Source of the DNA: Gracilaria domingensis
Lineage: Eukaryota > Rhodophyta > Florideophyceae > Gracilariales > Gracilariaceae
Assembly: GCA_022539475.1 (NCBI GenBank)
Contig: VCMS01000052.1
Span: forward strand, 1-64,000
DNA: 64,000 bases
Direction: 5' to 3'
Shown here in pieces: positions 13,700 to 44,440 of this stretch (positions are counted from its first letter, which is position 1; every line of letters begins with the position of its first letter). The position numbers and the translations under genes are program-made. Below the pieces are notes generated by a model. That model did no database searches. It was not told the origin of the DNA and saw only the letters and a program-made list of their open reading frames with translations.

Positions 13700-14356
13700 A
13701 GCGCGCGATGAGCTGCGGCATATGTTACAGGAGTTTACGCCCATGTGAAATGGCACGCTCGGCAAGACTGGAATAACCGAACACCGAATTGATCTAATGC
13801 CGAACACACGGCCAATCTCGCAACACTCTCACAGGGCAGAATGGACAGCGCGACAAGAAGAGAAAGATCAAGTTGAAAAAATGCTCTGCGCTGGAGTGCT
13901 CGAGCCAACTCAATCATCTTGGCCCTCGCCGGTGGTGCTCGCTCCCAAAGCTGATATTTCTTGGCTATTGGGCATCGATTACCGCAAGCTAAACGCTCCT
14001 ACGGTCAAGGATGTTTATCGTATCTCACGAATGGATGAATGTAACGATTTGTTGGGCGACGCGAAACGGTTCACAACGCTAGACGCGAATTGGGGCTATT
14101 GGAAAGTTCCCATGAGGGCTGAAGATCGTGACAAGACGGCTTTCGTTGGTCATGAAGGATTCTACCCATTCAATCAGATGCTTTTGAGTTAACAAACGCG
14201 CCAGCCACATTTAAGAAATCTGTGGATATTTTGCTCGCCCGCTTCGAGTGGAAACCTTGCATGGTTTATCTGGAGGACATCATTGTCTACTCCAACAACC
14301 TTGATGATCCCTTAATCTACGTACGGGATGTGATGCGAGTCCTACGCGATGCAGGC
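13700..14356 (+). pseudogene. Element 2 reverse transcriptase, N-terminal part
   Basis: Parallels 18573-19230 of element 1. Recognisable blocks include LDANWGYWKVP, RDKTAF and TNAPATFKKSVDILLARF. It has a stop at about 13745, a frame change near 14190 and an altered catalytic box: YLED at 14267-14278 in place of YLDD, so one catalytic Asp is lost. It ends exactly at the insertion site of element 1, after codons for LRDAG. Confidence 0.85.
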
Positions 14357-15095
14357 TGTAGTGCAACGCTCATCTATGAGTATTCTGACTGGACTTAGTC
14401 ATATTTCTCGTTTACGGGTTTGCCTGGTACACACCAGTATATGACTAGTAGTTACTAGTGGTTGCCATTGGGATGGTTCGGACACGTGGGACACGGTGGA
14501 GCTGAACGGAGGTTGGCCACAACACGTGGGCGGTTGCCACAATTAGTGGGAAGTTTAGTTGATATTATTTATTAATTTTAGTGAGGACACTACTTAGTGC
14601 GACGGCGTCGCCGCCGTCGCACCAGTAAAGTGCCCCAACCAGGGTGATCCTACCTCAAGGATCTCGGCTCTAGCCACTCTCGCCTTCGGCGGTGCACAAC
14701 TCCTTATCGGAGGGACTCCCCGTTGTAACGGTGCGGCTATCCACCCTGCGTCTCCACAGAACCCAACTTTGGGAGTGTTATAACCATCTGTTGTCGTGTT
14801 CGACCCTGTATAGGGAATACCCCGGCGATACGCCGTACCTCTCTTTTCCCTCTCTCTCTCCTATCTTTCCCTTTCCCCACTCCGTGGTTTCGTCCCTCTT
14901 CGAGGCTACTACACTCGCGTGCGAGTCACCCTTCTCTGCTCAACTCTCAACGCCCCGTCGCGACGGTTTGGCCCCGGTCTTACACCCGGCTAGTTGCGCC
15001 ATTCCAGAGAGGCTCTGTTCTCTGGGTTGCCCTCAGTAGAGGAAGATCCCGAACGTCTTCGTGGTGTCTTTTCCTCGCTCACGGGTTGCACTACA
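14357..15095 (+). repeat. Element 1 left LTR
   Basis: Contains two CACGTG boxes (14483-14488, 14523-14528), an AT-rich promoter-like block (14561-14580) and a perfect 11-bp GC-rich hairpin (14597-14622, GTGCGACGGCG with loop TCGC) followed by CAGTAAAG. A pyrimidine-rich stretch lies at 14840-14880. The order suggests U3, TATA-like element, then a transcript starting near the hairpin. Confidence 0.9.
14597..14622 (+). promoter_or_regulatory. LTR hairpin downstream of AT-rich promoter block
   Basis: The 11-bp arms GTGCGACGGCG/CGCCGTCGCAC with loop TCGC lie about 20-35 nt after the AT-rich block and are followed by AGTAAA. The right LTR repeats it at 25267-25292. Element 2 has an analogous hairpin at 31910-31929. 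Likely at the 5' end of the element RNA (inference). Confidence 0.55.
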
Positions 15096-15098: not shown

Positions 15099-15116
15099 TG
15101 GTCTCCCGACTTAGAA
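15099..15116 (+). other. Primer-binding site of element 1
   Basis: TGGTCTCCCGACTTAGAA starts three bases after the LTR. Its complement would be a tRNA 3' end closing with GGGAGACCA, with C at the conserved position 61. I cannot name the tRNA. Element 3 has the same site with one difference. Confidence 0.75.
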
Positions 15117-15194
15117 AGTTGACCCACTCTTGTGTACCCTCTTTGAGGTTCGTTTTCTCTCGGAAGTTCCCGTGTAACGGTTGGTTGGATACCG

Positions 15195-17395
15195 ATGTCT
15201 CGGAAGCCTTCCGATGCAGAGCCTGCGATCACTCGCAGTCGTTCCACCAACGGTGGTAATCCGACGGATGGTCAACCCCCTTCGAGGATACCAGTCCGCC
15301 CTGGATCTACATTGGGTAACAGACCGTCCTCGCGGACGTCTAACCCGCCGGCACGCCGGACACTTCTGTTTTCCCCGTTGATCCCTCCCACTGATGGGAT
15401 TGCTCCTGCATCTGCCGCTGCCGCACTGGCTCCTGCTGGGCAGGTAAAGGCGACCGCCGAGGCGTCTCAGGCCCGTCGGGAGACGATTGACGACCCCCAG
15501 GGTGCAACCCTGGAAGAGCAGGTTTGCATGCTGCGCGCTGCTCACAATTCCCTTATGGGAGCCCATGATTCCCTCGCGGGAGAAGTCCGGACGCTCCGGG
15601 AGGAAGTCCGCACATTTCCTGTGAAGGATGTTGCAGAGGATCTCCGTATTCTACGGTCCGATGTCAACTCCGTGCTGGAATGCATTGGAGGACCCGCTGC
15701 CTTCGTGGAAGGAATCGAGACCCGATTCGATCGGATTCGAAGCCGTCTGGAGACGTTGAAGAAGGCCGCTATCGCGGAACTTGCCACTCCGGCGGAGCCA
15801 GTTGAAGTGTCGCATCGCGACAAGAACACCGGTCGGGACAAATCACGCCGCAGGCGGCAGGCCAAGGAGCAAAACCAGTACTCCGACTCGGATTCGAGTA
15901 CGTCAGCTGACGCCCCGAATGATTCGGAAAGTTCTGACTCGTCAGAGTCTTCCATCGAAGATGGTCGTGCAGGGCACTCATCACGCTCTAAGCGGTCATC
16001 GGCCACCCAAGGTGTTGTTCGTACCCGGTCGAAGGGACGGAAGCACTCCGGGTTGAAGGAGCTGAAGCCGACGAGCCCGATGTATCGGAAGCTACTCCCA
16101 TACCGGTATTACCGTTTGGAGGATTCCTCATTGGATCGCACACCCCGTGGGACGGGTAAAGTGAAGGACTGCATCCGTCGTATGCAGCTCTCACTGCGTA
16201 ACCAGACCTTTTCTGGAGAGGACCCAGTCCTGGTGCTTGATTTTCTCGCCCGTTTTGTGGCGGAGGCCGATGTTCTCGGGATGAACGAAGGCCAGGCCTA
16301 CATTGCGTTACCGTATTTCTTACGGGGGGTGGCCGAAGACCAGTTCAACTCTGTAAGAGGCTCATCTCGTGCCTCCGAAGGAGGGGTTACGTGCTGGCCG
16401 GAAGCGGTCCAGTACTTGCTGCGCTCGTACGCCACCAACGACGCAATCGGTACGGCCATCCTGGCACTCCGGGACACCCGGCAGAAGTCTGGAGAGACGG
16501 AAACCGATTACTCGGTCCGCCTGAATAAGGCTTTCCACCGTTGTGGTAATGTCTACCCGCAGGGGAACGTTGTACGATGTTCGTCGACGGCCTCGACCCG
16601 GCCATCAAGACTTTGGTCGCCCGCTACCGCGAGGATAAGCGGAAGATTACCTACCTCGAGTTAGTCCAGTACGCTCGAGCGGAGGGTGATGCACTTCGTG
16701 CACGAGGTCCTGTCACCAGGTCGAAGTCCGCCAAGGCGTTGATGATGGAGACCGGATCCCCATCGTTGTCGCTGCACACGAGCGAGGCCTCCCCAAGGGA
16801 GTACGACAACGTCCAGTTGGCCCAGGAAGGCCGGAGTTCCATTCCAACTACGGAACTACCGTCAACGACGGATGCCTCCTTCGATACCGCTCGGGACAGC
16901 ACGCTGCTTTACGCAGATGCAAACCGTGTGAACGGGCCGAAAATCCCGTACGCGAACGGAGCAACCCGTTTTCAACGGCCTGGATGGAGGGACACACGCC
17001 CTAGGGTAGGGTTCACCGATGCTCGGAATAGTAACCCGTGTTCGGGGATGGCAATGCCGATCTGTCACCTTTGCTACACGCATGGTCACATTTCGCCGCA
17101 GTGCCTCCTCTCGATGAGGGATATGTCCATGGTTACGGTGAACTATGAAGCCTTGACTCCAGAGGAGAAGAGAACCGTCCCTATGACGTCGTACTTGCGT
17201 GCGAAGACGGACTTCTCTCACGCTGTCGCAGCACCACCGCCGCAGCGGAATGTCCAGGCACCACCCGTGCATCCAAACCCTCGGCATGTTGCCGAACCCA
17301 AAACCGCTAACGCGGGACCCCACGGCCAACGAGCCCAAGCACTCGTAGCCGAGGAACCTGAGCAGCCGCCGCAGGCGGAAGTTCAGGGAAACTGA
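15195..17395 (+). pseudogene. gag: Element 1 gag, one-base deletion
   Basis: Encodes the capsid/nucleocapsid polyprotein of the retrotransposon. The ATG at 15195 opens a frame running to about 16570, continued in the -1 frame to the TGA at 17393-17395. N-terminal Pro/Ala/Thr-rich part, then a coiled-coil-like segment (EEVRTF...SDVNSVLE). Next come an acidic Ser/Asp stretch (DSDSSTSADAP) and a conserved capsid core (VLDFLARFVAEADVLGMNE, SVRGSSRASEGG, SYATNDA). A CCHC zinc knuckle C-H-L-C-x4-H-x4-C lies near 17060-17103. Compared with element 3, exactly one base is missing in the G run at 16562-16565, which breaks the frame between capsid core and knuckle. This is a real mutation or an assembly error in a homopolymer. 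Without it gag would be a single frame of about 730 codons. Confidence 0.88.
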
Positions 17396-17427
17396 ACAAG
17401 GGACTCTCCCTTTCCGGAGAGGCGTCC
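17386..17427 (+). promoter_or_regulatory. Programmed -1 ribosomal frameshift signal, gag to pol
   Basis: In the gag frame the sequence reads G-GGA-AAC (17386-17392), a canonical X-XXY-YYZ slippery heptamer, directly followed by the gag stop TGA (17393-17395). The pol frame is -1 and becomes open only after a stop at 17359-17361, so the shift must happen in this 34-nt window. Eight bases after the heptamer a hairpin can form: CTCTCC (17404-17409) with GGAGAG (17416-17421), extended by GGA/TCC at 17401-17403 and 17425-17427. Heptamer type, frame direction and spacer length all fit known -1 signals. Confidence 0.8.
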
Positions 17428-19473
17428 TCAGAATTGAGGCTGTTGACGCCCGAGGCGTCGTTGCCTCGCTCCCCGGTGAAAATCTTCTCGAGGAAAGACG
17501 CCGCAGACGCGGATTCGAAACACCTCGGTGTTTTGCGTCGACCATGGATACGGGTAAGGAATAACCGGATCCCGGACCGAATCATGGTGATGGCCAAGCG
17601 AAACTATAAGGTGTACGCTGACCTTGGCCTGAGCCCCCAGTTTATGGTGCGTTACCTGACTGTACTAGACACAGGTGCAGGTCCGAACTTCATCGTGGAG
17701 TCCCTTCTCACACCGCAATTGCGGCAACTTATCCGCCGCAGCATGCTTCCTGATGTCGCTGATGCGAATAACAACCCGTTAACAACGGTGGGAACAATCG
17801 ACTTAGTCGTACGCTTGGGAACCTCCGTGGTGAAGGTCGACTTCATCGTTTGTCGGTCATTGGCTGCCCCAGTCATTTTGAGTTGCGATTACTGCGACAG
17901 GTTTGTCGATGCAATCAGGCCCCGCCTCAGGCGTGTAAAACTCGACGACGGTTCGTCGGTACCGATCGTCCGTCGTCCGCTGAAGCGGTCATCGCGGAAG
18001 CAAGTTCCACTCCCTGCTAAGCAGGCCCCGGCACCGGCGTCGCGCGAGTCCACCAAGCTCCGCGTCGCCGCGTCGATCCGCATCCCGCCTGAGTCCCAAA
18101 TGATGGTGTCGGTTAATTCCCGTCAACACGGTCTTCGGGTTATTCAATCGCTTACCTCGTTGTACGAGAAGTGCCAACTCGCTGTCGCGAATGGCGTTGT
18201 GCAAGTCACACCGGATACTCCGTTTCGGATACTTGTTGCCAACCTTGGCAGCACCCCCCAGTATCTGGTGAAGAACCAAGTCATTGGGTCTGTGACACCA
18301 CACCCACTCGCGATGCTTCCAACGAAGATGACGGCTGCGGATGTTCTCGGATTAGTTACCTCCGAAGAGGACGTCGCCTCATCTAAGGAGGGGGAGGGAG
18401 TCGCAATTCCTGCCGCTTCTACGAGTACCACTACCGTCGCAACGGAGAAGCAACCGACTGACTCGGAACCAAACCCTGTGTCAGGGACAGAAGAGCGTAA
18501 GCCCACGAGCTACGACAAGGTTGACCCCTTGAAGGCGCTCGAGGAACTTGACCTCGGTCATGTACCGGAGTCGCACCGTGAACGTCTAAGAGACATGTTA
18601 CGGGAGTTTACCCCAATGTGGGATGGCTCTCTTGGAGAGATCAATGCAACGGAACACCGTATCGATGTGTTACCGAACACGCGTCCGGTTTCACAACCCC
18701 CTTACAGGGCAGGACCGAAAGCTCGGGAGGAAGAACAGTTCCAAGTGGACAAGATGCTCCGCGCAGGTTTCATCGAGCACGCGCAATCGCCGTGGGCATC
18801 CCCAGTGGTACTGGCTCTCAAGGCCGACGGAACTTGGAGTTTCTGTGTCGACTATCGCCGACTTAACGCCGTGACGGTAAGAGACGCTTACCCAATCCCT
18901 CGTATGGACGAGTGCATCGCTTCGCTCGGTGACGCTACCGTGTTCACGGCATTGGATGCCAATTGGGGATACTGGCAAGTCCCCGTCAGGGAGGAAGACC
19001 GCGATAAGACTGCGTTCGTGTGCCACTCGGGCTCCTACCGCTTCAAGCGGATGTCTTTCGGCTTCACCAACGCGCCCGCTACGTTCCAGCGTGCCATCGA
19101 CATTCTGTTGAGCCGCTTCAAGTGGCGGACCTGTCTCGTCTACCTTGACGATATCATCGTGTTTTCCAGTAATCTGGACGATCATCCCACCCATGTCAGG
19201 GACGTGATGACCACTCTGCGTGATGCAGGAATCACCCTCAAGTTGAGGAAGTGTGAATTCTTCACCGACACCGTCAAGTATCTTGGGCACATAATCCGTC
19301 CAGGACGGCTGACGATCGAGGAAGCTCGCGTCAAGTCACTCGCTAAGGCGAAAGAACCGCGGACTCAAACGGAATTACGCTCCTTCTTAGGGCTGGTCAA
19401 CGTCTACAGACGGTTCGTGCCGAACTTTTCGGACATAGCGGCTCCCCTTAACGCTCTCTTGACTACCAAGTAG
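17393..19473 (+). CDS. pol: Element 1 pol, protease and reverse transcriptase
   Basis: The frame is open from after 17361 and is probably translated as a gag-pol product by -1 frameshifting at 17386-17392. The first ATG-like codon is only at about 17578. An aspartic protease region has the active-site triplet in VLDTGAGPNFI (about 17665-17697). A linker follows, then the RT: start of domain near FCVDYRRLN, LDANWGYWQVP, SFGFTNAPATF and the catalytic YLDD (about 19141-19152), YLGHIIRPG, SFLGLVNVYRRFVPNF. All RT motifs needed for activity appear present. The frame ends at TAG 19471-19473 because a deletion of about 150 bp relative to element 2 joins the end of the RT connection to the middle of RNase H in a different frame. 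Confidence 0.88.
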
Positions 19474-21404
19474 GCTGCGCGCTGTTCCAAACCACTCCCG
19501 AAGGAGAACGAAAACCCATAGGGTACTGGTCACGTTCGCTCAACGTTCATGAACGGAACTACTCCGTTTCGGAGAAGGAGTGCCTTGCAGTCGTATGGGC
19601 ATTATCCACCCTCCGTCCCTACCTGCTAGGTGTGCACTTTACCGTGTACACGGATCATTCCTCGTTGAGGTGGTTGATGAATATCTCTGATCCATCAGGC
19701 CGCCTTATGCGGTGGAGGCTCCGCCTAGCGGAATTCGACTTCGACGTCGTGTACAAAAAGGGGACCCTGAACACCCAGGCGGACGCGTTGTCGCGCTTAC
19801 CCACAAATGGGGAAACTCTGGCCGTCGAGGACGATGATATTCCTTGCTTCGTCGTTGGCGATGATGAGCCGGAACTCCCGGAGTGGCAGCTAGACGACTG
19901 GCTAGATGACTGGGACGATATGGACGCTGACTTCGACGAACTGCTTGTTGCAGGCAAAACCGAGGCTATAAAGCCCCTACCGGGGAATTTTGTCCCGGTA
20001 TCACCGGAAGAAATGATCCGAGAACAGCATGGAGACCCGTTCTGCATCAAAGTCCGTGCCCGACTAAACGGAGGCGACACCCTCCCATTCGAGGTTAATG
20101 ACATCGGCTATCTCATAAGGACAGTCGAGTCACACCCACAAGTCGTGGTACCACACTCGTTACAGACGAGGATCCTACACCTTTCGCATTACGCAAAGTT
20201 AGGTGGCCACGCAGGTGGACGGAAATTGTACCTCACTTTGAGGAGAGATTTCTACTGGCCCGCCATGGCGGTGGATTGTTACGCTACGGTACGCTTCTGC
20301 GCCGATTGCGCGAAAAACCGCGTGAAGCTGCGAAAGAATTCCAAGAAAGTGAAACTATTCCCTGCCAGGGTGCCGCTTGAATTTGTGGCAATCTATATTC
20401 TCGGACCATTGCTTACCACTCGGAGAGGTAACAAATTTCTTCTCGTTATCACCGATCGGTTCTCGAAACTGGTTCGGACAGTACCTCTAAAGAGGATCAC
20501 CGCGTTCACGGTCGCGCAGGCATTCGCCACGCACTGGATCTTCGTGTACGGTTTTCCTGTGGAGTTATTATCCGATAACGGAAAGCAATTCGCATCCCGG
20601 TTCTTCCAGGATGTCTGCCGCATCATGGACGTGAAGAACCTCTTCACGACCACTTACCATCCCCAATGTAATGGGCAAGTTGAACGGTATAACCGTACGA
20701 TGTTGGCATCTCTCCGTTCCTACGTTGCTGACCACCCAAAAACATGGGACTTATACACCGACGCGTTAACCTTTGCGTATAACACGCAGGTACACAGGAC
20801 TACTGGTGTTTCCCCATTCGAACTGGTTTTGTCAAGGACACCCCCGCCATTGGCGTTAGAATCACAAGCTACCTTGGGCAGTTTCCCATCTGTGGGTGAT
20901 TATCGCCAACAATGGAAAGCCTCGCTAACGAAGTTAGTACCGGCTGCCCGGAAGTCAATGGCGAAAGCCCAAGCCGCTTACAAGCGTGATTTTGATGCTC
21001 GCTTGCGAGGAAGGACCCCTGAACCCCTTACGATGGGAAACCATGTCTTCGTACGGAAGGAACACTACAACCCTGAAAAGGGCAAACGTCATAAGCTCTC
21101 GCCTGTGGCGGATGGACCGTACAAGGTAATCTCGGTTGCACCGGACACTGTTGTAGTCGAGATCGCTGACGCGCATGAGCGGATCTCCCGCGACCGCGTG
21201 GTAATGGCCCCTCCACCCTCGTCTGAGGTTACCCCGTCTGATACAGAGCCCGTGTCTACGGAGTCAACAACACCGGTACCACCGGAAACAAATGTGGTGA
21301 CAAGACCGTCCGTCCTGCCCCACCCCCACCGAGGCCTTACAGACCTCCCGAGGCCTTACAGACCTCCCGATAGAGTCGGCGCCACCGACTGTGTCGGACA
21401 ATGA
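19461..21404 (+). pseudogene. pol: Element 1 pol, RNase H (truncated) and integrase (catalytic Asp changed)
   Basis: After the deletion junction the frame carries the C-terminal half of RNase H (IGYWSRSLNVHERNYSVSEK, YTDHSSL, ADALSRLP). The N-terminal part with the first catalytic Asp (DTDASD in element 2) is gone. The integrase has the zinc-binding HHCC region (SHYAKLGGHAGG ... FCADC). In the catalytic core the first Asp is replaced by Tyr (TAT at 20394-20396; element 2 has Asp there), while the second Asp (LSDNGKQF) and the Glu (GQVERYNRT) remain. A GPY-like region (KLSPVADGPYKVI) follows. Pol leaves frame before the chromodomain because a 19-bp direct duplication (21331-21349 and 21350-21368) shifts the frame by one. 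Confidence 0.85.
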
Positions 21405-22701
21405 TCGCCACCAGGGCACCCCCGTTTCTGTCCCATCGCTGGGTTCACCTACCCGCGATGCGGGACATTCTGTTACTCCCCACACCGCTCCATCTGAGGA
21501 GGAGGAGGAGGTTATCAGCTCTGCTGAGAGTCATAAGCCGACGTCGCGTCGTGAGGACAACCGTGAAGCACGGACTATACGGAGCTCTCCGGATGTTCCG
21601 GCCAGTGCGCGGGCATCGCGTCCGCAACGCACGCTCGCACGCCGCACACACAGCCCCGTTGCCGGGAAGTCTACACCGTCGCCGGGTAAGGACACTCACG
21701 CAGAAGCGGATTCGGTTAAGTCAACAGAACCTCGTGGCCAACCAGCCGCGCTGGGTCGAACGAAGTCGAAAGATGTCGCCGGCATCACGCCGACGCCGTC
21801 GGAACGAAGCCCCACTGGGGAAAGCGCAGCAACATCGCGGCCCGCCGCGCGACGCGACGCAGAACGACCAGGAATCCTGGAAAATCCTGCGGAGCAGGCA
21901 CGAGCTGAGGAAAAAGAAGTCCCGAGCAACTCGGTAGAACCCGGCGGTACAGCCGTGGGAATGCCGGACACTCCGGGAAGAGTTCACGTCATGGACGGTA
22001 CGGCACCAAATATTGGGCGTAAAATATCGGCGCAAGCGCAGGCACGCGCGGAGATCACGAGATCGCAAGCCGCCGGCGGTGTTGATAACCCCGGTAACCC
22101 GGAAGTAACCGTTCAGAACGAGAACTTGAGCAAAGAAAGAAAAGGGCCAACGGCGCAGCCGTTGGAGGACACCTGTAACAGGGAGGCGGTTCTCCCGAGG
22201 GAGCTTGACAGCCAACCGTCGCTACAGTCACGTGCAGGCACGGTTGTGAAGCCACCCGAGGTGGGACTCTCCGACGCAAACGGACAAGGCGAGCACACAG
22301 CTACGCCGACGCCGCCGAAGCGGAAGGACCCACGCCGAATGGCGGTACGCAGCGACATCGAAAGCACGTCCCCTCGGAGGGAACTGGCGACGCAAAGCCA
22401 GGCGCGCGCTGTTACCCCCGTCACGGGAACCGTTCCCCCGCAAGGGTTGTCGACCGATGAAGTAACAATAACACGGCAAGGCCGGCAGGTGTACATTCAG
22501 GAGTACATTGTCGACCGAATTGTCGGGCATACCTGGGACCAGGAGGGCATCTTGTTATACCGCGTCCGTTGGTACGGCTACGACCCAGAGTGGGATACAT
22601 ACGAACCTATCGAGCACCTGCCACGCTCGAAGGTCGTACAGTACCACCGCTCCGCGGGGACAGCCACACCAGCGACGCTGGACGATGCCCAAGTGGGATA
22701 A
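21369..22701 (+). CDS. Element 1 chromodomain-bearing C-terminus of integrase
   Basis: Open frame to the TAA at 22699-22701. A long low-complexity linker rich in Pro, Ser, Thr, Glu and Arg precedes a chromodomain near the end: YIVDRIVGHTWDQEG, LYRVRWYGY, DTYEPIEHLPRSKV (about 22498-22647). The aromatic residues Y, W and Y typical of methyl-lysine-binding cages are present. Chromodomains on integrase direct chromoviruses to marked chromatin. In elements without the 19-bp duplication this would be continuous with integrase. An internal ATG at 21391 exists but translation from it is doubtful. Confidence 0.85.
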
Positions 22702-23093: not shown

Positions 23094-23759
23094 TTACTGG
23101 CCGTCGCCATCGCCCTCATTCTGAGGAGGCATACCGCCAAGGCGTTGAGCCAAGGCATCCGCCATAGCGGTGACGTCGCCAGAGGCCGCACTAGCACTTA
23201 AACCCGCGCCGCGGAGGAAGCGAGCGATAATCGCACCTTCGTTCACACCCGCCGCCGGGGGATGAGCTGCAGCAGCCGCAACAGCGGGAAGAGCCGGCTG
23301 AGCCGGAATGGGTACCGGAATGGGAACCGGAGCAGAGCCGGCGCCCTCCCCCGCAGGGGTTGCGTCGATCTCTTCGATCATCTCGATATCGTCGCCTCCC
23401 GTGTCCTCGGGCTGATTATCCACCATTGGATCTCCCCGGAGGTACTCTCGGTAATACTCATCCGAGTTCACAAACCCAGTTGGGTGATCGGCCGGCACTC
23501 GCCGGGGAGCAGAACGGAGCTCACCCGCTTCCTCAGCGGTAATCTCCCGATAATCCCACGGGTCGAAGAAGACATAATCGCCCGCAAGAGCGGTATTTCT
23601 TCCCAGACCTGGGCCGTATCCACCCGTGTTCGGGGAATCACCGCGACTACTCTGAGAAAGAGGCACTTTGGTCCAGTCGATACTATCGATATAATCGAGA
23701 AGGCTCAACACCTCGTCGTTGTTGGCACGACCCCCGAGGAAGACTTCCAAGTCCAAACT
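23094..23759 (-). pseudogene. Antisense retrotransposon protein, element 1, C-terminal part after in-frame TGA
   Basis: Same frame as 24983-23760, separated by one TGA. Starts SLDLEVFLGG, then LLDYIDSIDWTKVP, VFFDPWDY, ADHPTGFV. An acidic stretch and a Pro/Ala-rich region follow, then a final conserved segment AIIARFLRGAG. Elements 2 and 3 have IRNLDL and IRSLDL across the stop position, so the protein is normally continuous (about 629 codons). Within this part an ATG at 23756 exists, but there is no reason to think it is a start. Confidence 0.78.
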
Positions 23760-24983
23760 TCAGATGGCCGCCCGCACACGCGAAGGGATGAACCACAGTC
23801 GATACTGGTCATATGCCTCAGCGAAGACAAACGCCGCGGTGCGGACATCCCACTCGGTGACGACAACCGACCACAACCCAGTCCTGGGATCTGTGAGTAG
23901 GTATGACCCTAAGTAGGTGAACACCGGGGGCAACTCGATGTAGCACCCCCGGCATGCTTCGAGGTAACTCCACCACTCTGGCAGAGGCACATACCGACCC
24001 TGTCGGTGCGCAGCCGCGATATGGCGGATCTCCACGTTCTGATACGGAGCGAAGTACCCAAATTGGGATTGAGACCGCCTCTCATGGCGGATGAAGTTCT
24101 GAAGGAAGTTAGACCGCGAACGGCGGGGGAGATATCGAAACTCAGCCCGAAGAATCGGTCTTGTCCAGCATATGGCTTCCTGCCGTGCAACGGGCATTCC
24201 CCGCCAGGCGAAGGTTTCCAACGCCGCTAGGCGGTCGCAGTAACTGATTTCCCCGCAGGTGCGGTAAAACGCCACATCGAAGTCCATCCCTGGCGGGATA
24301 GGAAACTCGAACGGCGCCCGGCCTTGCCGTTTGTAAGCCACCATGACAAAGTTGGCATGGGCTTCTTCCCGGGATTGCCGATTTTCCCGCGCTACCTGAT
24401 GGACAGGAATCGCGATGCGCGTGCGCCAATCCCACGAAGTGGTCACCATTGCCGGGAGGTCCCCCGGAAGGGTGTTGCGTCCGTCGGCATACTCAGTGAT
24501 GAGGTTTTCATTGAACACCGCAGTCGGGTGGAACCACGGAGCGAGCCGGAGGCGCCTCGCATGTCGCCGGTTCGCCGGGTTGAGCCCTACAAGGGAGTTG
24601 AAAGACGGCCAGACCACACCTGGATGGAACCCGAGGACGGGGCTCGCGAGAGCGGCATGCTGCGCGGAGGATCCTCCGACAGTGTTCGATTGCCCCGCGG
24701 ACGGGTTGGAACCCTGTTGAGGGAGCGGAACGGAGCAGAGTCCGGTGAGGCCCCCTTGGGGGAACGGTGGTTGGTTCGGAGGCTGGTTCGGTGGAACACC
24801 ACTCATAGTGAGGTCTAGTTCCGGTGTCGGAGGAAAGTTGATCGCAGGAGCGAGAGAGAGTTCGGTACTCTGAGGAGGTGCTGCTACTGCAGAAGCAGGG
24901 AGCACGTCGTTGACGGGAGAAGGAGAAGAACATACCGGAGGACCGGGGAGCGCTGCACTTATATCTTCTTGGCTCGGCGCCAT
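23760..24983 (-). CDS. Antisense retrotransposon protein (aORF), element 1, N-terminal part
   Basis: 407 codons from the ATG at 24983, opposite in direction to gag-pol, starting 44 bp from the 3' LTR. The first 110 residues are Pro/Ser/Ala-rich. Then come motifs also found in elements 2 and 3: PWFHPTAV, SWDWRTRIAI, RPILRAEFRYL, QFGYFAPYQNVEI, GRYVPLPEWW, GCYIELPP, TEWDVRTAAF, EAYDQYRLWFIP. The in-frame TGA at 23762-23760 replaces an Arg codon of the other copies (a CGA to TGA change). The frame then continues to 23094. No transmembrane segment, zinc knuckle or known domain is seen, so it is not an envelope-like protein by appearance. Conservation over three diverged elements argues for a real protein. 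Antisense ORFs at this place are known in plant Tat-lineage Ty3/gypsy elements; I see no sequence relation I could claim. Confidence 0.82.
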   Translation of the reverse strand: MAPSQEDISAALPGPPVCSSPSPVNDVLPASAVAAPPQSTELSLAPAINFPPTPELDLTMSGVPPNQPPNQPPFPQGGLTGLCSVPLPQQGSNPSAGQSNTVGGSSAQHAALASPVLGFHPGVVWPSFNSLVGLNPANRRHARRLRLAPWFHPTAVFNENLITEYADGRNTLPGDLPAMVTTSWDWRTRIAIPVHQVARENRQSREEAHANFVMVAYKRQGRAPFEFPIPPGMDFDVAFYRTCGEISYCDRLAALETFAWRGMPVARQEAICWTRPILRAEFRYLPRRSRSNFLQNFIRHERRSQSQFGYFAPYQNVEIRHIAAAHRQGRYVPLPEWWSYLEACRGCYIELPPVFTYLGSYLLTDPRTGLWSVVVTEWDVRTAAFVFAEAYDQYRLWFIPSRVRAAI

Positions 24984-25013: not shown

Positions 25014-25024
25014 AAGGAGGGGGA
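25014..25024 (+). other. Polypurine tract of element 1
   Basis: AAGGAGGGGGA, two bases before the right LTR (TGTAG at 25027). Element 3 has the same tract before its right LTR (43458-43468). Confidence 0.8.
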
Positions 25025-25026
25025 TA

Positions 25027-25765
25027 TGTAGTGCAACGCTCATCTATGAGTATTCTGACTGGACTTAGTCATATTTCCCGTTTACGGGTTTGCCTGGTAC
25101 ACACCAGTATATGACTAGTAGTTACTAGTGGTTGCCATTGGGATGGTTCGGACACGTGGGACACGGTGGAGCTGATCGGAGGTTGGCCACTACACGTGGG
25201 CGGTTGCCACAATTAGTGGGAAGTTTAGTTGATATTATTTATTAATTTTAGTGAGGACACTACTTAGTGCGACGGCGTCGCCGCCGTCGCACCAGTAAAG
25301 TGCCCCAACCAGGGTGATCCTACCTCAAGGATCTCGGCTCTAGCCACTCTCGCCTTCGGCGGTGCACAACTCCTTATCGGAGGGACTCCCCGTTGTAACG
25401 GTGCGGCTATCCACCCTGCGTCTCCACAGAACCCAACTTTGGGAGTGTTATAACCATCTGTTGTCGTGTTCGACCCTGTATAGGGAATACCCCGGCGATA
25501 CGCCGTACCTCTCTTTTCCCTCTCTCTCTCCTATCTTTCCCTTTCCCCACTCCTTGGTTTCGTCCCTCTTCGAGGCTACTACACTCGCGTGCGAGTCACC
25601 CTTCTCTGCTCAACTCTCAACGCCCCGTCGCGACGGTTTGGCCCCGGTCTTACACCCGGCTAGTTGCGCCATTCCAGAGAGGCTCTGTTCTCTGGGTTGC
25701 CCTCAGTAGAGGAAGATCCCGAACGTCTTCGTGGTGTCTTTTCCTCGCTCACGGGTTGCACTACA
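25027..25765 (+). repeat. Element 1 right LTR
   Basis: 739 bp, same length as the left LTR with four visible substitutions (for example A to T in GCTGAACGG/GCTGATCGG and G to T in CCACTCCGTGG/CCACTCCTTGG). Followed by the target duplication CAGGC and the resumed RT of element 2. Confidence 0.93.
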
Positions 25766-26583
25766 CAGGCATTACACTCAAGCTGAAGAAGTGCGAGTTC
25801 TTTACCGAAACCGTCAGTTATCTCGGCCACGTTATCCGTCATGGACGGCTGTCGATAGACGAAGTCCGTGTGAAGTGCCTCAAAGAGTCTAAACATCCGC
25901 GGACGCAGACTGAACTCCAATCCTTTCTCGGCTTGTGAACCGTTTATCGCCGCTTCATTCCGAACTTTGCGGATATGTCAGCATCTCTAAACGAGCTTCT
26001 TTGAAAGGGACAGCCAGTACAACCAGAAGCGTTCGATGACCACAAGGCTGCGGCTTTTTCATCGCTCATTGACGCGGTGACATCGCCAACCGTTCTATCC
26101 CTACCTAGGGCTGGGTTGCCGTATGCCATCGATACGGATGCGAGCGACTACCAAGTTGGCTGCGCACTGTTCCGGACCACCGAAGATGGCGAAAGATTGC
26201 CAATTGGGTATTGGTCAAGAAGCCTCAACGTTCACGAGAGTAATTACTCGGTATCCGATAGGGAGTGCTCGGCAGTGATCTGGGCCTTGCAGACACTGCT
26301 CCCGTACCTAATGGGGAATCGCTTTATTGTTCACCACGATCATTCGCCCTTGCGCTCGATACTCTCTATCACAGAGCCATCATGCCGCTTGATGCGGTGG
26401 AGACTGCGGGCAGCCGAGTTCGATTTCGAGATTCGGTACAAGAAAGGACTCCTGAATACACAGGTTGATGCTCTTTCCCGTTTAGAAACAGCGGCTGAAG
26501 CCGCGCCAGTGGATGATCTGGAGATAACGTGCTTCCTCACGGAAGACGGCTCGAGCGATGCCGATGAAGATTCGAACGGATGA
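25766..26583 (+). pseudogene. Element 2 RT C-terminus and RNase H
   Basis: Continues the RT interrupted at 14356: ITLKLKKCEFF, YLGHVIRHGR, SFLGL, then a stop (25936-25938), YRRFIPNFADM, another stop near 26004, then a complete RNase H start with DTDASDYQVG and IGYWSRSLNVHESNYSVSDREC, ending near ADALSRLE-like codons. It keeps the stretch that element 1 has deleted. Confidence 0.85.
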
Positions 26584-27918
26584 GACATCTACGATGCTGT
26601 TTTAGCCCTGTCAGACACGCACCCAGAACCGGGCTTTTTCGTACCGATCAAGCCGGAAGAACTAATCTGGGAACAACACAGGGACCGCTTTTGTACTGAG
26701 ATTCGTAGCGGTTTGAACGGTGGAACACGGATGCCTTTCGTCGAGAACGACCAGGGATTCCTCATCCGAACTGTCCGAAACAGGCTACAGATTGTGGTTC
26801 CACACTCACTGCAGTCATTAGTACTGCATCTGTCGCATTATGCGAAGCTCTCAGCCCACCATGGTTGCAGAAAGTTGTACTACACCTTGAGGAAGGACTT
26901 CTATTGGCCAGCGATGGCTTTCGATGCGTATGCCACTGTTCGTGAATGTTCTGATTATGCAAAGAACCGCGTCAAGCTGCGGAAGTATTCCAAGACGTTA
27001 GTACTCTTCCCTGCTAGGGCCTTACTTGAATTCGTGGCTATTGACTTGCTCGGTGAGTTTATTCGCACTCACCAGGGAAACCGGTTCCTACTGGTGATCA
27101 CCGACCGCTTTTCTAAGCTAGTACGGACTGGGCCTTTGAAGAAGGTTACCGCCAGTGCGGTCGGCCAAGCTTTCGTTACACACTGGGTTCTTTTCTACGG
27201 ACCGCAGTTTGCTGCTAAGTTCTTTGAGATCGTCTGCCGCATCTTGCGGATCCAAAAATGGTTTACGACAACATATCATCCCCAGAGTAATGGGTAGGTT
27301 GAACGATCTAACCGCACTATGCTTAATGCATTGCAGAAGTTTGTTGCCGATCACTCGACGGAATGGGATCAATACACCAATGCGGTGACTTATGCCTAAA
27401 ATACGCAGGCTCATCGCACTACTCAGATCTTGCCGTTCGAGCTCGTGCTATTACGCGTTCCACCGTCGGTGGTCATCGATCCACAGCAAATACTGGATAA
27501 GTTCCCCTCGCCCCGCCTACACACGGACGCGTGGAAGGTCTGGCTTACGAAGATCATTCCTACGACTAGGCAGAATATCTGTAAGGCACAGGCCGCCTAC
27601 AAGCGGGATTTTGACGCCAGAGTACGCAAACATGCCCCTCAGATCAGGGAATGTAGCTATGCCTTCATACGGAAGGAATACTATGACCTCGAGAAAGAGA
27701 TGCCTCACAAGCTTTCTCCTATCGCGGACGGTCCCTACAGGGTCGTGGCTGTGACCGACACTACGATGGTTTTTGAGATCAAGGGCGAGCACGAGCATTT
27801 TTCGCGGGATCGCGTAACGCCTGCGCCAAAGCCTGCGTCTCAGGAATTGCAACCGCCATCGTCGGCCCCTACCACATCTACTGGGAAAACAGCCGTCGAA
27901 ACGGAAACGCCTGTTTAA
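26584..27918 (+). pseudogene. Element 2 integrase
   Basis: Zinc-binding region and core are recognisable (SHYAKLSAHHG, VAIDLLGEF with the first catalytic Asp intact, LLVITDRFSKLVRT). The segment holding the second catalytic Asp is missing: FYG runs directly into PQFAAKFF. A TAG replaces Gln in NGxVER at 27295, and a TAA lies at 27397 in the YA-NTQ block. GPY-like motif (KLSPIADGPYRVV) near 27710-27750. Inactive. Confidence 0.85.
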
Positions 27919-29375
27919 CCGTCTGTTCTGCCGCACCCCGACCGCGAACTTGCTGATCTGCCGGCTAAGCCGGAATATCACCAGTCAGTCTCTGCTGCCG
28001 CTCATGTACGCAGGCGGATACTGGCCTCTCCGGAGATACTAACCACCGCCCTCAACGCTCCAACTGAGGAGGGGGAGGAGGCAGATCGCAATTCGTCGTC
28101 TTCGCCGTTAGGAACGCAGCCCGCTTTGCATTCGGGCAAGGGCACACCCGTACGGGGTGCACAGCCGAAAAGCCCGGAAGGACGCTACAGTGAAGTCACT
28201 GAGACTGCCGCCCCGCTCGCGTATAGTACTGCATCGCCGTCACAGGCGGAGACCAGGGAGCCACCCCCTGCTGGCAGAACGAAGCCGGAGAGCCGGAGCG
28301 GAGTCCTACTCAAAGACACCTAGCCGCGCCGCACGCAGGAGATGGACGATCTTCTCTGTCGCCGTCGTTGACGGATGCGCCTTCGCAAGCCTCTGTTACG
28401 CCCAAGGGCACGCCAACGCGTGATACACAGTCGGAGAACCGGAACGCGGAGAAGGACGCGCAGTCTTCGCGAAAACCTAAAAGGGAGCTAACCACTTCGG
28501 TGAAACGCCCAGCCGGAAGTCCGGAAAGAGATAAGTCGGCCCGAAAAGACCGTGCTGTTACGGCAGACCCGACTTCGGGAGATTTTGGCCACTTGCCAAA
28601 TGATGAAACCGTCAAGAAGACGGAAGCAACCACCGGCATGCGCACATTGCGCCAAGTGTCTGGCTTCGCCAGCGAACCACCTCCAGTAAAGGATGACAGC
28701 CCACGAGCTGGGAACGTGCCTGCTGTGAAGCTCGCGGCTGCTGAAAACGGAAATTCCGAATTTGAATCGGCAGCGAACAGCCGTGCAACTGTGCAGGCCT
28801 CACCATCAGCAGTGAATGGCGAAACGCCGCCTCGGGGCACGCCACAGTACCGCTTGCTGGCGCAACACAACGCGGACCGCTCACCCTCTCAACGTGAGAT
28901 CTCGCCGGAACGCCGGAAGCACGCTACTCGAGAACACCGAAGCTCGGCTACAGCCCAACCACACGGGAAAAAGAACCAGGAAACTGGAGGCCTGAGAGTC
29001 AGGAAAACACAATAGCCGAGACCTCTCTCGCCTGGCATACAGGATGCCTTGCCGTCAGGACGGAAGCCGCCGACAGTCGATGGTGCCCGCGACGGGAAAA
29101 GTAGCAGTGACGCCTCAAAAGAGGACACAGAGACCAAGCCGCACGCTAAGCGGAAGGTCCTCGACGAGGAACACGTCGTTGACCGTCTGGTAAGCCACGG
29201 CTACGCCCCGGACAGGGAGCTCATATACCGAGTCCGTTGTACGGGTACCACCCTTCGAGGGATACACCCGAGCCCATCGAGCCTTTGCCTCCTTCGAAGG
29301 TCTTTCAATACCACCGCCGCACACGGACACCGATACTGGCTACGATGGACAATGCTCGAGTGGGTTGACTACCTA
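27919..29375 (+). pseudogene. Element 2 linker and chromodomain remnant
   Basis: Begins SVLPHPDRELADLP after a stop, matching element 1 upstream of its 19-bp duplication. A long Pro/Ser/Arg/Glu linker spread over several frames follows, with one open stretch at 28368-29015. The chromodomain begins at about 29155 (EEHVVDRLVSH, ELIYRVR) and is broken by a frame change near 29245; its second half (DTPEPIEPLPPSKVFQYHR) is readable in another frame up to about 29365. Confidence 0.75.
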
Positions 29376-29752
29376 CAAGCAAGGGATCACAGCCGTTTTA
29401 AAGGCATTATGCCGCGCAATGCGGACAGCTTTCGCTGAACAAGAATGCCGCAAAATGCGGAAGCCACCCTACGGTGCAAGAGAGGAAGACAGTAGAGAAG
29501 AAAGAAGCCAGAACACTGGAAAGAAGTTTACTGAAGAATTGCCATTGCTGCATATGCGGAAAGTTTAACCTTCTCACTGCGGGCTTGCTGTTACAGCCTC
29601 TACGGAGGTATTGCCCACTGAGAAGGGGGAGCACAAGAAGAAAATTTAGAAGCCAAGCCGGCAACAGCCGGATAAGTTTACTTAAAGACTATGGAGACTT
29701 GCTCCTCGCTAGAGAGGTCGATCGCAAGCTTCGATTACCCTCTGTGGGGGGT

Positions 29753-31576
29753 CTAAGAGCCGGATGGACCAGCCCCGGAGGTGATGCTACCGCAGGGAGC
29801 ACTGGAAAAGTGCTGAGCCGCGATGGCTTGCAGGTCCGATTCGCCGGTGATATTGTCCGGAATGGCGATGCCCACGGCTCGCAGGAAGTCGCGAATAATC
29901 GCCGCACGCTGAGTGAGCGAAGCACCGAAACTTCCGGTTGGAGCATCGGGTTGCCTCCAAGGGGCCGCGGGTTCAAGAGCCGCCTCGGCGGATGGTTCGA
30001 CGTCCTCAAAGATGTCGTTCCCTCGCGCCTCAGCGGCCTCGCACTCCTCTGCGGTACCCATAGGGCTACCCTCGTCCATAGGGCTACCTCCCTCAGCAGG
30101 GTCCTCTCCGTCGTCATCGACATAGACGAACCCACGGGGGTGCCCCTCGGGAATAGAACGGTCAGCCCGACGACGCTCAGCCGCTTCGGCGATTCCAATC
30201 ACCTCCCATTCCCATGGGTCAAAAAAGATGAAGTCGCCGGCGTTGACGTTTCGTACCGGGGAACGGTCGTTCAGCCTACGAATCTCGTCTGAAACCTGAC
30301 TGGCAGTCACTTCATCCCAGTTGATCTGGTCAATCACGTCCACCAGTTGGGTGGCTCTTCGTGCGTTACGCACCGAGCCGAGTAATTCGGAAAGATCCAG
30401 GTTCCTGATGAAATGCCGGATGAGATCCGGAATATGCCAGAGACGGTATGTATCGTACGCCTTTATAAGGAGGAAAGCCGCAACGCGGACGGTCCATTCT
30501 GTCGCAAGAATTCTCCTTAAGCCAGGTGATGGATTGTTCAAGAAGTACAACCCCACATGCGTGAGGCAGGGCAGGAGCTCAACATGACACCCTTGCAGGA
30601 CCTCGACCGCCAGCCAGAAAGATGGCAGCGGCACGTAGCGACCACGGCGGGAATGCCCGGCAATCCGTTCAACCTCCGTACACTGGTACGGCGCAAGAAT
30701 CACAAATCGGGAGCGCCACTTCCTCCCGAATCTGAGGCCTTCCTGAAACTGAGACCGTGGAGAACGGCGAAGGTACCGGAATTCGGCGCGAAGAATGGGA
30801 CGAGCCCACAGTGTCAACTTCTGGTGAGGCTGTATGGTATCCGAGTATCGGTCAGTTTCTTCCAATGCGTTGGCTAGGTGGTCGCCATAGCCGACTTCGC
30901 CGACGGTTCAGTATCTAGCCACATCGTACTGGTACTGTGCCAGAACCGGATGCTCATTCGAAGCTCGTAAATGGCGCGCATACCCGATGCGGGCTATTTC
31001 GTTGCGAGCAAACTGTCTCGAGTCATTCCTACCCACAAATAGGAAACTCGGGTTGACCGCGACGCGGGCTCACCAATCCCATGAACGGGTTACGTCAACC
31101 GGAAGCCCACCGTGGAGATAGCCGTCGACAACGTGCGAGTCGGCGTGCTCGTTATCCCGCAAAGCGGCGGCGTCAAGCCAGGGAGCCTGGGCGAAAAGAA
31201 AGTGATGCCGGTGAGGATCCCGGATTCATAGAGCGCCAGGTGTTGGCCACCCTCCCAGGGAAGCCGGTACTTTAGCGTGGAACCAGTCCCATACGGGTGC
31301 CGACCCCGCACCCGGGGCAGGGGCAGGACCCCGGCCGGAAGTTCGCGGCTGCGAAACCGCCAACTGCGGAAGGGGTACCGACCTGAACGGCGCGTTGGAA
31401 ACTTTCATATGAGCCGTCGAAGACGGAGGGCCGCTAGGCGGAGCGATCGGATCGTTCGCGTCAGGCATATCTGTTCGAATCTTGGGAGCAGGAGAGCTTG
31501 CTGCATTCGATTGTGCGTTGTGTTCCGATGATTCCTCGGCAGGCGCATCCATGGGAGAACCATTATATACCCGCAT
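29753..31576 (-). pseudogene. Antisense retrotransposon protein, element 2
   Basis: Homologue of 23094-24983. The N-terminal part from the ATG at 31576 (Pro/Ser/Ala-rich) runs to about 31226, then a stop-containing stretch (about 30866-31225) still shows SWDW and GGLPVDV. From 30865 to 29753 there is an uninterrupted frame of 370 codons: RPILRAEFRYL, KWRSRF, GRYVPLP, ATEWTVRVAAF, KAYDTYRLWHIP, IRNLDL, FIFFDPWEW, EGHPRGFV, AAIIRDFLRAVG. This contrasts with the sense pol of the same element, which has many stops. The same region of the sense strand has no coding role. Confidence 0.78.
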
Positions 31577-31629
31577 TGTGGGGCATGTTGACCGACGGAA
31601 TCGGGCGTCTCATCCTGAGAAGGGGGAGA

Positions 31630-36025: not shown

Positions 36026-36995
36026 TGTAGAGCAAAACGTGCTCGCCCGATACACGGGGATGGTTTTCATAAATCCCTGATAAGAATGATTCCGGGTACT
36101 CGGAATTTATGAGTATTGGCCCACGGATGGGATGCTTTCGACAGTATTGAGGTACGGTACTCTGAGAGGTCGGCCATGACGTGGCGCAGATGAGTATTGG
36201 TCGCGTGTACGCGTGTGTAGGAATGGGTGTGTTCACACATGTTTTGTTATGATTGTCGGACTTTTTACTGGCCGCTGCCGCGGGTTGTCACGTGCACCAC
36301 GTGTATGGACCTTCTTAGGTGTGCATTAGATTATTTAATTTAGTTTAACTAATTTATCGGTTACGATATAAGAGGTGACCTCCCGGTGACCTCCTTCTTC
36401 AGTAAAGGATAACCGGGTTCGGCTCTGAATTACGTTCGCCTGCGCGAAGTGCACAACTCTCCCAGGAGGGTCACCGCGTACGGTACAAACTACATTCATC
36501 CTTCGGGATCATTCAGGCACTACTGACCTACACAGCTGTTGCCCTCGGGCTTATTTCCGTCTTCGGACCATTCTCGTACTTGTCTTCACTTCCAGCTTAC
36601 TGCTTACCTGTGTCAGGTGGTTTTCCCGTCTCTGTACAGAGTCACTGCCACGTGGGCTTAATACACAACCCCCGTCTCCCGTCGCCGGGTCTCTTGCCGC
36701 TTGTCGCACGCCCCGCCGAGGGTTCCTCCTTTGTTTTTCCCTTCTTTTTCTCCCTTCTACCTAGGGCTTACACCGCTCTACGGGACCTTTCCTCTCGACC
36801 ATTCCGTCACTTTTCGCCGGATTCCTGGATCAGGCCCGTTCACCCCTCAACCTCCGTAGGTATATCCCGTACCACGGGCGGTCTTACACCCGCACTATTC
36901 GTGTTCGGAGGGCGCACCACTGAGTTCACCTCGTCTAGAGGGCAAAGACTCGAACGCCTCGAGAGACGATCCCATTGCCGGGGTTTTGCTCTACA
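36026..36995 (+). repeat. Element 3 left LTR
   Basis: Starts TGTAGAGCAAAACG, ends TTTTGCTCTACA. Two overlapping-range CACGTG boxes (36289-36294, 36298-36303), a TATA-like GATATAAG (36365-36372) followed by GAGGTGACCTC and CAGTAAAGG. Confidence 0.92.
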
Positions 36996-41584: not shown

Positions 41585-43390
41585 TCACTGCCATCCTGTC
41601 GAAGGACCGGCACCTCCAGGGTTAGACGGCCCGGCTTGGGGAGGCTGACTCGCGAAAGCCTGCGCGTCCAATGCAAACAGTTGGCCGAGGTCATACATAT
41701 CCGGTGGAACCGGCACCTCAAGTCCGAGGAGTTGGTTGCGCATCGCTACCACGCGAGGGTCGATGTTCCCCAGCGAAGGGCTCACACCCCAACAGATAAG
41801 AGCAACTGGCGCAACCACCACTCCGACAACCAGAACTCCTGCGGAAGCCGTCGACGGACCTCCTGTTGCCGGGTCTTCCACATTATCATCCGCCATTGGA
41901 TCGTCCTCCTCTGCTACGGAGTAATAGTTGTCGGAAAACATGAAACCAATATGGTGATCGCTCGGAACCACTCCAGGAGTTCCGCGTAGGACGAGAGCCC
42001 GCTCTTTCGGTACGGTTACGCCCTCTTAGGGATCGTAATACACGAAGTCACCGGCACCCGGATGTCTTCGCCCTGGCGAACGGTCGTGGTGCGAACGAGT
42101 GCCCCTGGGGACGGAACGGTACTCCAATCAATGGAATCGATGAGATCGATAGGGCTGATGACCTCGCTGACGTTGTCGTCCGAACCGAGCGCGGTGTATA
42201 AATCCAGTGATCTAATCACATTCCGTAACCTCGGAGGCAAATACCAAACACGGTTCTGGTCGTATGCTTCCCATAGCATAAACGTGGCAACGCGAGCGGC
42301 CCATTCGGCGATGAAGAGCATCCAATACTCCGAGTGCGGATTTGCAATCATGCGTGACCACACATAGGATATGCACGGAGGCAATTCCGGGAAACATCCG
42401 CCTGGAACCTCATAGTGAGCCCACCACGATGGGAGTGGAGCGAATCGACCCGCTAGTGCGTCTGAACGCAAACGTTCAACCTCCATGTTCTGGTGTGGAA
42501 TCAGATACCCGAACCGGGATCGCCATTTGCATTCGTTTCGCAGTCGGTCGAAGAAGCTTCCCTCTCCCGAAGGGCGATGTAGATATCGGAACTCCGCTCG
42601 CAGGATAGGCCTGTTGAACAGGAGAACATCCGCCGGCATCGACTCCGGGAAGTTTTCCGCCGCATGGAATTCCGCGAGGTTCGCGCCATACTTGATCTCT
42701 CCGTGAGTTCGGAACAGGGAAAGGTCGAACCCGTATGACTCGGGTATCCTCTCGGGGAACGAGGCTGGGTCCTTTCGAAAGTATACCAATCGTGCCATTG
42801 CCGCAGGCGCTTCATCCATCGTTTCGTATCCACGGGCCGCGCCGTTTCCGTGACAACACGTGAGATGCGACCGCCACGCGGTGTCTCCAATCCCAGGAAT
42901 CCCCCATATCTCGGTGCAGGCCGCCAGGCAGCATACCGTTCTCGGTGTATGAATCCATCAACGCACTGTTGCGAACCGCTGTCGGGTGAACCCAGGGCGC
43001 TTTGGAATAAACCCAGCCTCCTCCGGTAGTCGGATCTTGAACAAGGAGCGATTCACGCGCTATCCAGCCAGCTGAAGTCGCCAGCAAGGGCACCGCCTGA
43101 GCGAAATTCTACGCCGCGACGTCGACCGGGTTCGGTGTAGCCGTGTGATGTTGACTCTGAGGCAGAGGAGCGGAGGCGAAACCGCCGAGATACCCTGTCC
43201 CAGAAGTTGCGGGACCCGAAACGTTCGGAGCCCCGGCTTGGCAATGATGCTCGTTGCCCTGGTGAGGGTTCATCGAATCGTCGATCGCAGAAGAAACTTC
43301 AAGTACTGAATCGTCTGAGTGCAGAGAAGCTGATTGCGCTTGCGCGTGTGTCTCGTTGTGACGAGGAACCGGAATCTCGGATAAGTCCAT
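41585..43390 (-). pseudogene. Antisense retrotransposon protein, element 3
   Basis: Homologue of 23094-24983. ATG at 43390, 80 bp from the 3' LTR. The N-terminal Ser/His/Pro-rich part ends with an in-frame TAG at 43111-43109. The same frame continues (APWVHPTAV, GGLHRDMGDSWDWRHRVAV) to a frame change near 42830. It then runs openly 42819-42016 (RPILRAEFRYL, CKWRSRFGYL, GRFAPLPSWW, GCFPELPP, EWAARVATF, EAYDQNRVWYLP, IRSLDL, IDLIDSIDWSTVP). Another frame change near 42050 leads to VPSDHHIGFMF and a final Ala/Gly/Pro-rich part with a hydrophobic patch (VLVVGVVVAPVALICW), ending at 41585. Disabled, but clearly the same gene. Confidence 0.8.
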
Positions 43391-43457
43391 GGTGGACCAC
43401 GCTTATATGCGAGCTCTCTGATGAGTCTCCGCTTGTAAACCGGATGTTTCCTGCGCT

Positions 43458-43470: not shown

Positions 43471-44440
43471 TGTAGAGCAAAAGGTGCTCGCCCGATACAA
43501 GGGGATGGTTTTCATAAATCCCTGATAAGAATGATTCCGGGTACTCGGAATTTATGAGTATTGGCCCACGGATGGGATGCTTTCGGCAGTATTGAGGTAC
43601 GGTAACCTGAGAGGTCGGCCATGACGTGGCGCAGATGAGTATTGGTAGCGTGTACGCGTGTGTAGGAATGGGTGTGTTCACACATGTTTTGTTATGATTG
43701 TCGGACTTTTTACTGGCCGCTGCCGCGGGTTGTCACGTGCACCACGTGTATGGACCTTCTTAGGTGTGCATTAGATTATTTAATTTAGTTTAACTAATTT
43801 ATCGGTTACGATATAAGAGGTGACCTCCCGGTGACCTCCTTCTTCAGTAAAGGATAACCGAGCTCGGCTCTGAATTACGTTCGCCTGCGCGAAGTGCACA
43901 ACTCTCCCAGGAGGGTCACCGCGTACGGTACAAACTACATTCATCCTTCGGGATCATTCAGGCACTACTGACCTACACAGCTGTTGCCCTCGGGCTTATT
44001 TCCGTCTTCGGACCATTCTCGTACTTGTCTTCACTTCCAGCTTACTGCTTACTTGTGTCAGGTGGTTTTCCCGTCTCTGTACAGAGTCACTGCCACGTGG
44101 GCTTAATACACAACCTCCGTCTCCCGTCGCCGGGTCTCTTGCCGCTTGTCGCACGCCCCGCCGAGGGTTCCTCCTTTGTTTTTCCCTTCTTTTTCTCCCT
44201 TCTATCTAGGGCTTACACCGCTCTACGGGACCTTTCCTCTCGACCATTCCGTCACTTTTTGCCGGATTCCTGAATCAGGCTCGTTCACCTTTTAACCTCC
44301 GGAGGTATATCCCGTGCTACGGGCGGTCTTACACCCGCACTATTCGTGTTCGGAGGGCTCACCACTGAGTTCACCTCGTCTAGAGGGCAAAGACTCGAAC
44401 GCCTCGAGAGACGATCCCATTGCTGAGGTTTTGCTCAACC
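43471..44440 (+). repeat. Element 3 right LTR
   Basis: 970 bp. Differences from the left LTR are dominated by C/T and G/A changes, clustered in the last 300 bp (for example CACCCCTC to CACCTTTT). The final bases read AACC rather than TACA, but the target duplication TGAGT follows exactly. Confidence 0.92.

Follow-up and report, generated by a model that had tools for sequence, protein, structure and literature searches.

Several LTR retroelements carry a gene in antisense orientation ahead of the 3' LTR. In the Retand elements of flowering plants, the antisense open reading frames (ORFs) bear a Transposase_28 domain (PF04195) (PMC11963269). The maize element Grande carries gene23 in antisense orientation between pol and the 3' LTR, with a promoter upstream of the gene and a nuclear protein as its product (PMC7264820), and Boty of Botrytis cinerea has an antisense gene, brtn, at the same place (PMC7264820; PMC8365987). 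Retroviral antisense genes such as HBZ of HTLV are likewise located near the 3' LTR and have their own promoter (PMC11963269, PMC10186651).

Here, we analyzed a window of 64,000 nucleotides from the red alga Gracilaria domingensis (assembly GCA_022539475.1, contig VCMS01000052.1), which contains three retrotransposons (E1, E2 and E3) with a common antisense gene. This architecture is already known in kind; the protein family and the host group are new. A search by title and abstract, with subscription journals mostly outside its reach, found no description of an antisense ORF in LTR elements of red algae. A first, sequence-only reading of the window had named antisense ORFs in plant Ty3/gypsy elements; beyond plants, the fungal Boty has one at this place too (PMC7264820).

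The comparison with the described systems shows both parallels and differences. The Retand elements are non-chromoviruses of flowering plants, and their region between pol and the 3' LTR is much longer than that of the algal elements (PMC11963269). The algal gene is like gene23 of Grande in its antisense place, and its candidate promoter is marked by a TATA box. By its published description, Boty is, like the algal elements, a non-plant LTR element with an antisense gene, its host being a fungus. The promoter of HBZ lies within the 3' LTR, whereas the algal TATA box is found in the internal region. In the available parts of two accounts of the known systems, a fixed internal TATA box and a lysine desert are absent from the descriptions (PMC7264820, PMC11963269).

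Anatomy of the three elements

E1 is a full element with paired LTRs, primer binding site, polypurine tract and target duplication. Its 5' LTR (14357..15095, plus strand; 739 bp, TG..CA) is 99.3% identical over 742 aligned bp to the 3' LTR (25027..25765, plus strand), and the 5-bp target duplication CAGGC is present at 14352-14356 and again just after the 3' LTR. The primer binding site TGGTCTCCCGAC (15099..15110, plus strand) follows right behind the 5' LTR, a motif that is also found behind the 5' LTR of E3, and the polypurine tract AAGGAGGGGGATA (25014..25026, plus strand) abuts the 3' LTR. A gag-side ORF (15147..16664, plus strand), presumed to be gag by its position, matched no Pfam family above the cut-off. 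The pol region (16550..22701, plus strand) is split over several frames and encodes reverse transcriptase (RT), RNase H, integrase and a chromodomain (Pfam matches RVT_1, RT_RNaseH, Integrase_H2C2, rve and Chromo). The best PDB match of the RT was the Ty3 RT (4ol8, E 2.2e-60). The order RT, RNase H, integrase, together with an RT that is nearest to Ty3 among the solved structures, identifies E1 as a Ty3/gypsy element.

On the minus strand, E1 encodes the antisense gene at 23094..24806, counted from a proposed start methionine (MSGVPPNQP) and interrupted by one in-frame stop. The gene sits between the chromodomain and the 3' LTR, flanked by the LTR pair of E1, and does not overlap gag-pol, as the last pol ORF ends at 22701. 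E2 carries a C-like copy (29753..31576, minus strand; likely start near 31468) with three in-frame stops, and E3 a copy of the D/E subfamily (41585..43390, minus strand; likely start near 43272) with several stops and frameshifts, so that all copies in the window are damaged. The sequence-only reading had reported the same minus-strand protein, with its named blocks, at 23094-24983, 29753-31576 and 41585-43390. A tblastn search with 17 family members matched all three places and confirmed that the gene is common to the three elements.

A chromodomain (PF00385) is located at the integrase C-terminus in elements of the A, B and C subfamilies. The idea of an antisense accessory gene in a non-plant, chromodomain-bearing Ty3/gypsy lineage is supported; the chromodomain would fit a chromovirus, but chromodomain elements exist outside the chromovirus clade as well (PMC12477816).

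The two other elements are incomplete. The LTRs of E3 (36026..36994 and 43471..44439, both plus strand) are 97.5% identical. Between them, tblastn did not find the RT and integrase cores (36026-44439), while gag-side sequence, the chromodomain end and the antisense gene are retained. From this layout, E3 is probably a non-autonomous deletion derivative. E2 (25766-31650) begins within RNase H, immediately behind the 3' LTR of E1, and no 5' LTR of E2 was detected within the window; an insertion of E1 into E2 would explain this, as would a truncation of E2.

Distribution of the antisense gene

Searches of the 77.9-Mb genome of G. domingensis gave at least 102 matches with an A query, at least 70 with B and at least 107 with C, where the three sets overlap and only the best candidates were scored. 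These numbers place the gene far beyond chance. Many genomic copies are open across 600-720 codons: among the matches listed, 23 of 70 for B are full length, stop-free and open over at least 715 codons, 62 of 107 for C are stop-free within the match with an open frame of at least 594 codons, and 11 of the first 20 for A are stop-free with open frames of 605-673 codons. The gene is present across four deep subfamilies (A, B, C and D/E), whose proteins are 38-48% identical over 456 ungapped columns.

Scoring the best 8000 database candidates yielded 16 listed relatives, among them three from Gracilariopsis chorda and one each from G. domingensis and Agarophyton chilense. The database protein of G. 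domingensis matches the genome with 99% identity along its longer part and 92% along its second part. Divergent relatives (P0005, P0007 and P0011-P0017) are located on environmental contigs, which indicates that the range of the family is wider than the Gracilariales. A scan of viral and prokaryote contigs confirmed no member.

Selection on the antisense frame

The antisense frame is under purifying selection. Its ratio of nonsynonymous to synonymous change (omega) was 0.18-0.37 in 11 of the 13 pairs that were not saturated at synonymous sites, the two weak pairs being A-A (0.57) and A2-A2 (0.78); the remaining 32 of 45 pairs were saturated and left out. For the core of the protein, 8 of 9 pairs had an omega of 0.10-0.40, and the pair with the truncated copy L026 had 0.87. 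Pooling eight young A copies resulted in a value of 0.63, as expected where recent neutral change dominates. The sequence-only reading had named a ratio near 1 with frequent stops in young copies, or a constraint on the plus strand, as the findings that would speak against a conserved protein. Neither was observed: comparisons between subfamilies gave an omega far under 1, and the constraint does not lie in the plus-strand frames.

In the same 11 pairs, four other frames had an omega of at least 1.05, the plus-strand frames among them one of at least 1.11. A fifth frame, the plus-strand mirror of the wobble positions, reached 0.29-0.49, which is what one might cite for a chance ORF or a shadow of plus-strand constraint. 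Yet this frame holds 13-24 stops per copy, a pattern to be expected where wobble positions coincide. Stops and protein-level homology together refute this explanation, to which we assign a negligible probability.

Another alternative is that the minus strand acts as RNA only, in that its transcript forms a duplex with gag-pol RNA to regulate or silence the element, the ORF being incidental. Since the gag-pol RNA must cross the region to reach the 3' LTR, the two transcripts would be complementary. An RNA role has been raised for plants in a review (PMC7264820). A purely RNA-based function is, however, hard to reconcile with selection at the protein level and an identity of about 40% at which synonymous sites are saturated, or with the many open copies and the relatives in other genera, and we regard it as improbable. 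An RNA role and a protein role could coexist.

A TATA box on the minus strand

A TATA box in antisense direction occupies a fixed place inside the 3' end of the elements, 58-60 nt from the complement of the polypurine tract. In the window, it reads GATATAAG in E1 (24958..24965, minus strand; offset 59), TATATAAT in E2 (31562..31569, minus strand; offset 58) and CATATAAG in E3 (43402..43409, minus strand; offset 59). The box was present in every subfamily where the edge between polypurine tract and LTR was found, namely as TATATAAG in C, TATTTAAG in B, GATATAAG or GGTATAAG in A, CATAAAAG in A2, CATATAAG in D/E and TATATAAT in the E2 lineage, while the 44 nt between the tract complement and the box are only 18-55% identical between lineages. 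It is kept in 37 of 38 LTR-edge rows and lost in L014; this count is based on 40 pattern rows minus two that do not mark an LTR edge of this gene (the second row of L026, and L038), with L001 being the same copy as E1 of the window. None of 5000 shuffles reached the score of the five lineages (mononucleotide shuffling, shared ancestry ignored). As a control, a sense-strand TATA box with at most one mismatch was detected in three of five LTRs (E3, E2 and C) and in neither E1 nor B.

The earlier proposal of an antisense promoter in or next to the 3' LTR thereby gains a candidate site, at the level of sequence. A scan for bacterial promoters returned no promoter-like site, but covers sigma-70 types only and has no bearing on a eukaryote. 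Behind the stop codon of the gene, a list of minus-strand poly(A) signals had a single match in A but no match in B and C.

The position of the box also affects the start codon. Transcription starts about 25-35 nt behind a TATA box, so the ATGs first noted at 24983, 31576 and 43390, which are at most 18 nt upstream or 12 nt downstream from the box, would fall outside the transcript and are probably not the true starts. The next conserved methionine of E1 is at 24806. From this position the frame of A, A2 and C reads MSG or MSN, while other residues come after the methionine in B, E2 and D/E; relatives beginning at the same methionine are P0013 (MSG), P0012 (MSN), P0005 (MSD) and P0017 (MSE). 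Both the TATA position and these relatives point to the later methionine as the probable start. The upstream part of the ORF as first noted in E1 (24807..24983, minus strand) contains the TATA box and is probably promoter and leader instead of coding sequence. Omega for the stretch before the proposed methionine ranged from 0.10 to 1.72 over nine pairs and is not uniformly that of unconstrained sequence; in the equivalent of 24807..24983, A shows weaker selection, and B and C give a mixed picture.

Domain layout and lysine content of the protein

The protein consists of an N-terminal tail rich in Pro, Ser and Ala, a core of about 310-325 residues that is rich in Arg, Trp and Tyr and holds the invariant blocks, and a C-terminal tail. 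The latter is acidic (net charge -8 to -23) in 10 of the 11 proteins that have it, the exception being P0005 (+2); in the Gracilaria and Gracilariopsis forms it is acidic with a short conserved stretch at the end.

The sequence-only reading could not name a domain, and searches against Pfam, NCBIfam, PHROGs and PDB sequences agree, with no relative above thresholds. The single NCBIfam match was at chance level (E 0.053), and a PDB sequence match to H2B tails (best E 0.19) was judged compositional. With hmmscan, none of 10 family members in one run and none of 20 in another matched Transposase_28 (PF04195); the same model had no match in the genome, a search in which the positive controls were equally silent. 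HBZ has a leucine-zipper (bZIP) domain, and Pfam scans up to E 10 revealed none in the algal proteins. Near the C-terminus, we observed a conserved two-helix-like stretch (e.g. P0013 510-536), possibly a small module for binding nucleic acid or envelope. The only lead to a known family, a match of this stretch of P0013 to Ish1, was below threshold (E 0.092), concerned 1 of 20 members and was dropped.

In position, between pol and the 3' LTR, and in size, the gene resembles env, which would suit an envelope-like or structural particle protein. The antisense orientation argues against such a role, as do the missing Pfam family and the hydropathy profile: over 12 proteins, the maximum of the 19-residue mean was 1.12-1.86, with charged residues inside the top stretch. 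An envelope-like gene would be in sense orientation and encode a transmembrane segment, neither of which was found, and we consider this role quite unlikely.

The composition shows an extreme shortage of lysine. The proteins contain 1-2 (A), 2 (B) and 2 (C) lysines compared to 8.8-11.3 expected from base composition, with Asn in excess; E has 5 compared to 9.8 expected, and the gag-pol ORFs hold 9-47. The ratio K/(K+R) is 0.02-0.10, compared to 0.24-0.38 for the gag-pol products of these elements. The coding frame has fewer lysine codons than the +1 frame in 10 of 10 cases, and fewer than the +2 frame in 8 of 10; AAR words are rare in one non-coding frame of C, too. Among 21 open frames of at least 550 residues, 19 have 1-4 lysines and the other two 7 and 9. 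In P0001, the longest lysine-free run spans 610 of the 617 residues and in P0006 684 of 721; it reaches 426 in A and 318 in C, in contrast to 74-106 in the gag-pol ORFs. Distant relatives are lysine-plentiful (P0005, P0011 and P0016, 20-35 lysines), while P0013 has 4; the shortage is therefore characteristic of the Gracilariales branch and of some other members.

In such long conserved lysine-free stretches, the algal products resemble lysine-desert proteins. Lysine deserts have been described for proteins of the ubiquitin-proteasome system, where the long lysine-free stretches include disordered regions (PMC10169902). Those are host proteins of the ubiquitin pathway, whereas the algal product is encoded by a retrotransposon and no ubiquitin-related domain was found in it.

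Possible function of the gene product

Weighing these data, we favor, with somewhat better than even confidence, a third, antisense and separately expressed accessory gene of a chromodomain-bearing Ty3/gypsy lineage of red algae. RNA polymerase II would start about 25-35 nt behind the minus-strand TATA box, and the gene would thus have its own transcript, apart from the gag-pol RNA. The product may act inside the cell, probably in the nucleus, where it might regulate or chaperone the RNA or DNA of the element itself or act on host chromatin. By analogy, it would work like gene23 of Grande or the retroviral antisense proteins, with which it has no known kinship. The lack of lysine might protect it from ubiquitylation and make it long-lived.

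A more specific version appears possible but clearly less secure: an ancient antisense regulatory gene with its own internal promoter, purged of lysine to escape ubiquitin-dependent degradation and independent of the antisense genes of plants, fungi and retroviruses. If true, a mobile element would keep its regulator stable against host protein quality control, and a retrotransposon would evade ubiquitylation by composition. The literature places antisense genes at this position in elements of flowering plants and of a fungus, and this work adds red algae, with no kinship found where it is testable. The recurrence suggests that a third gene with separate expression has been selected for repeatedly in LTR elements. 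The algal family is suited to testing, since many young copies are open, the TATA box predicts the transcription start and the lysine shortage predicts stability.

The protein could also restrain its own element and control copy number like a self-limiting factor. A separate promoter would let the dose track the copy number, and long-lived proteins would fit dose sensing. The self-limiting factor of Ty1 is a gag fragment. In contrast, profile comparison found no kinship of the algal protein to the gag-side ORF of its element (probability 0.1%), and copy-number control is in our view an unlikely role.

Linkage to the retrotransposon

Of 68 places with an integrase similar to that of E1, at least 34 are followed within 9 kb by a typed copy of the gene, in antisense orientation in 34 of 34. 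The list of typed copies is partial, and the remaining 34 places are not thereby without the gene; two of them, C45 and C171, do show a match to it. Among four loci picked by integrase alone, L038, L039 and L041 hold the gene, and L040 matches L039 at 97.8% identity until it breaks off ahead of the antisense gene. The integrase tree and the antisense-protein tree agree in topology, which is weak evidence, as it concerns one split among four lineages, expected by chance in one of three cases, with an integrase support of 71.

Transduction is known for retroelements (PMC7264820), and the gene could accordingly be a captured host gene or another transposon nested in the elements. The same place and orientation across four deep subfamilies speak against this origin, as does the result that no host gene and no Pfam, NCBIfam, PHROG or PDB entry was related above thresholds. 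We give capture very little credence, though one of ancient date may have occurred. Just past the end of a B element, locus L024 contains a further open frame of 1016 residues (6453-9503, plus strand) with no Pfam match; the sequence common to B copies ends at about 6009 in this locus.
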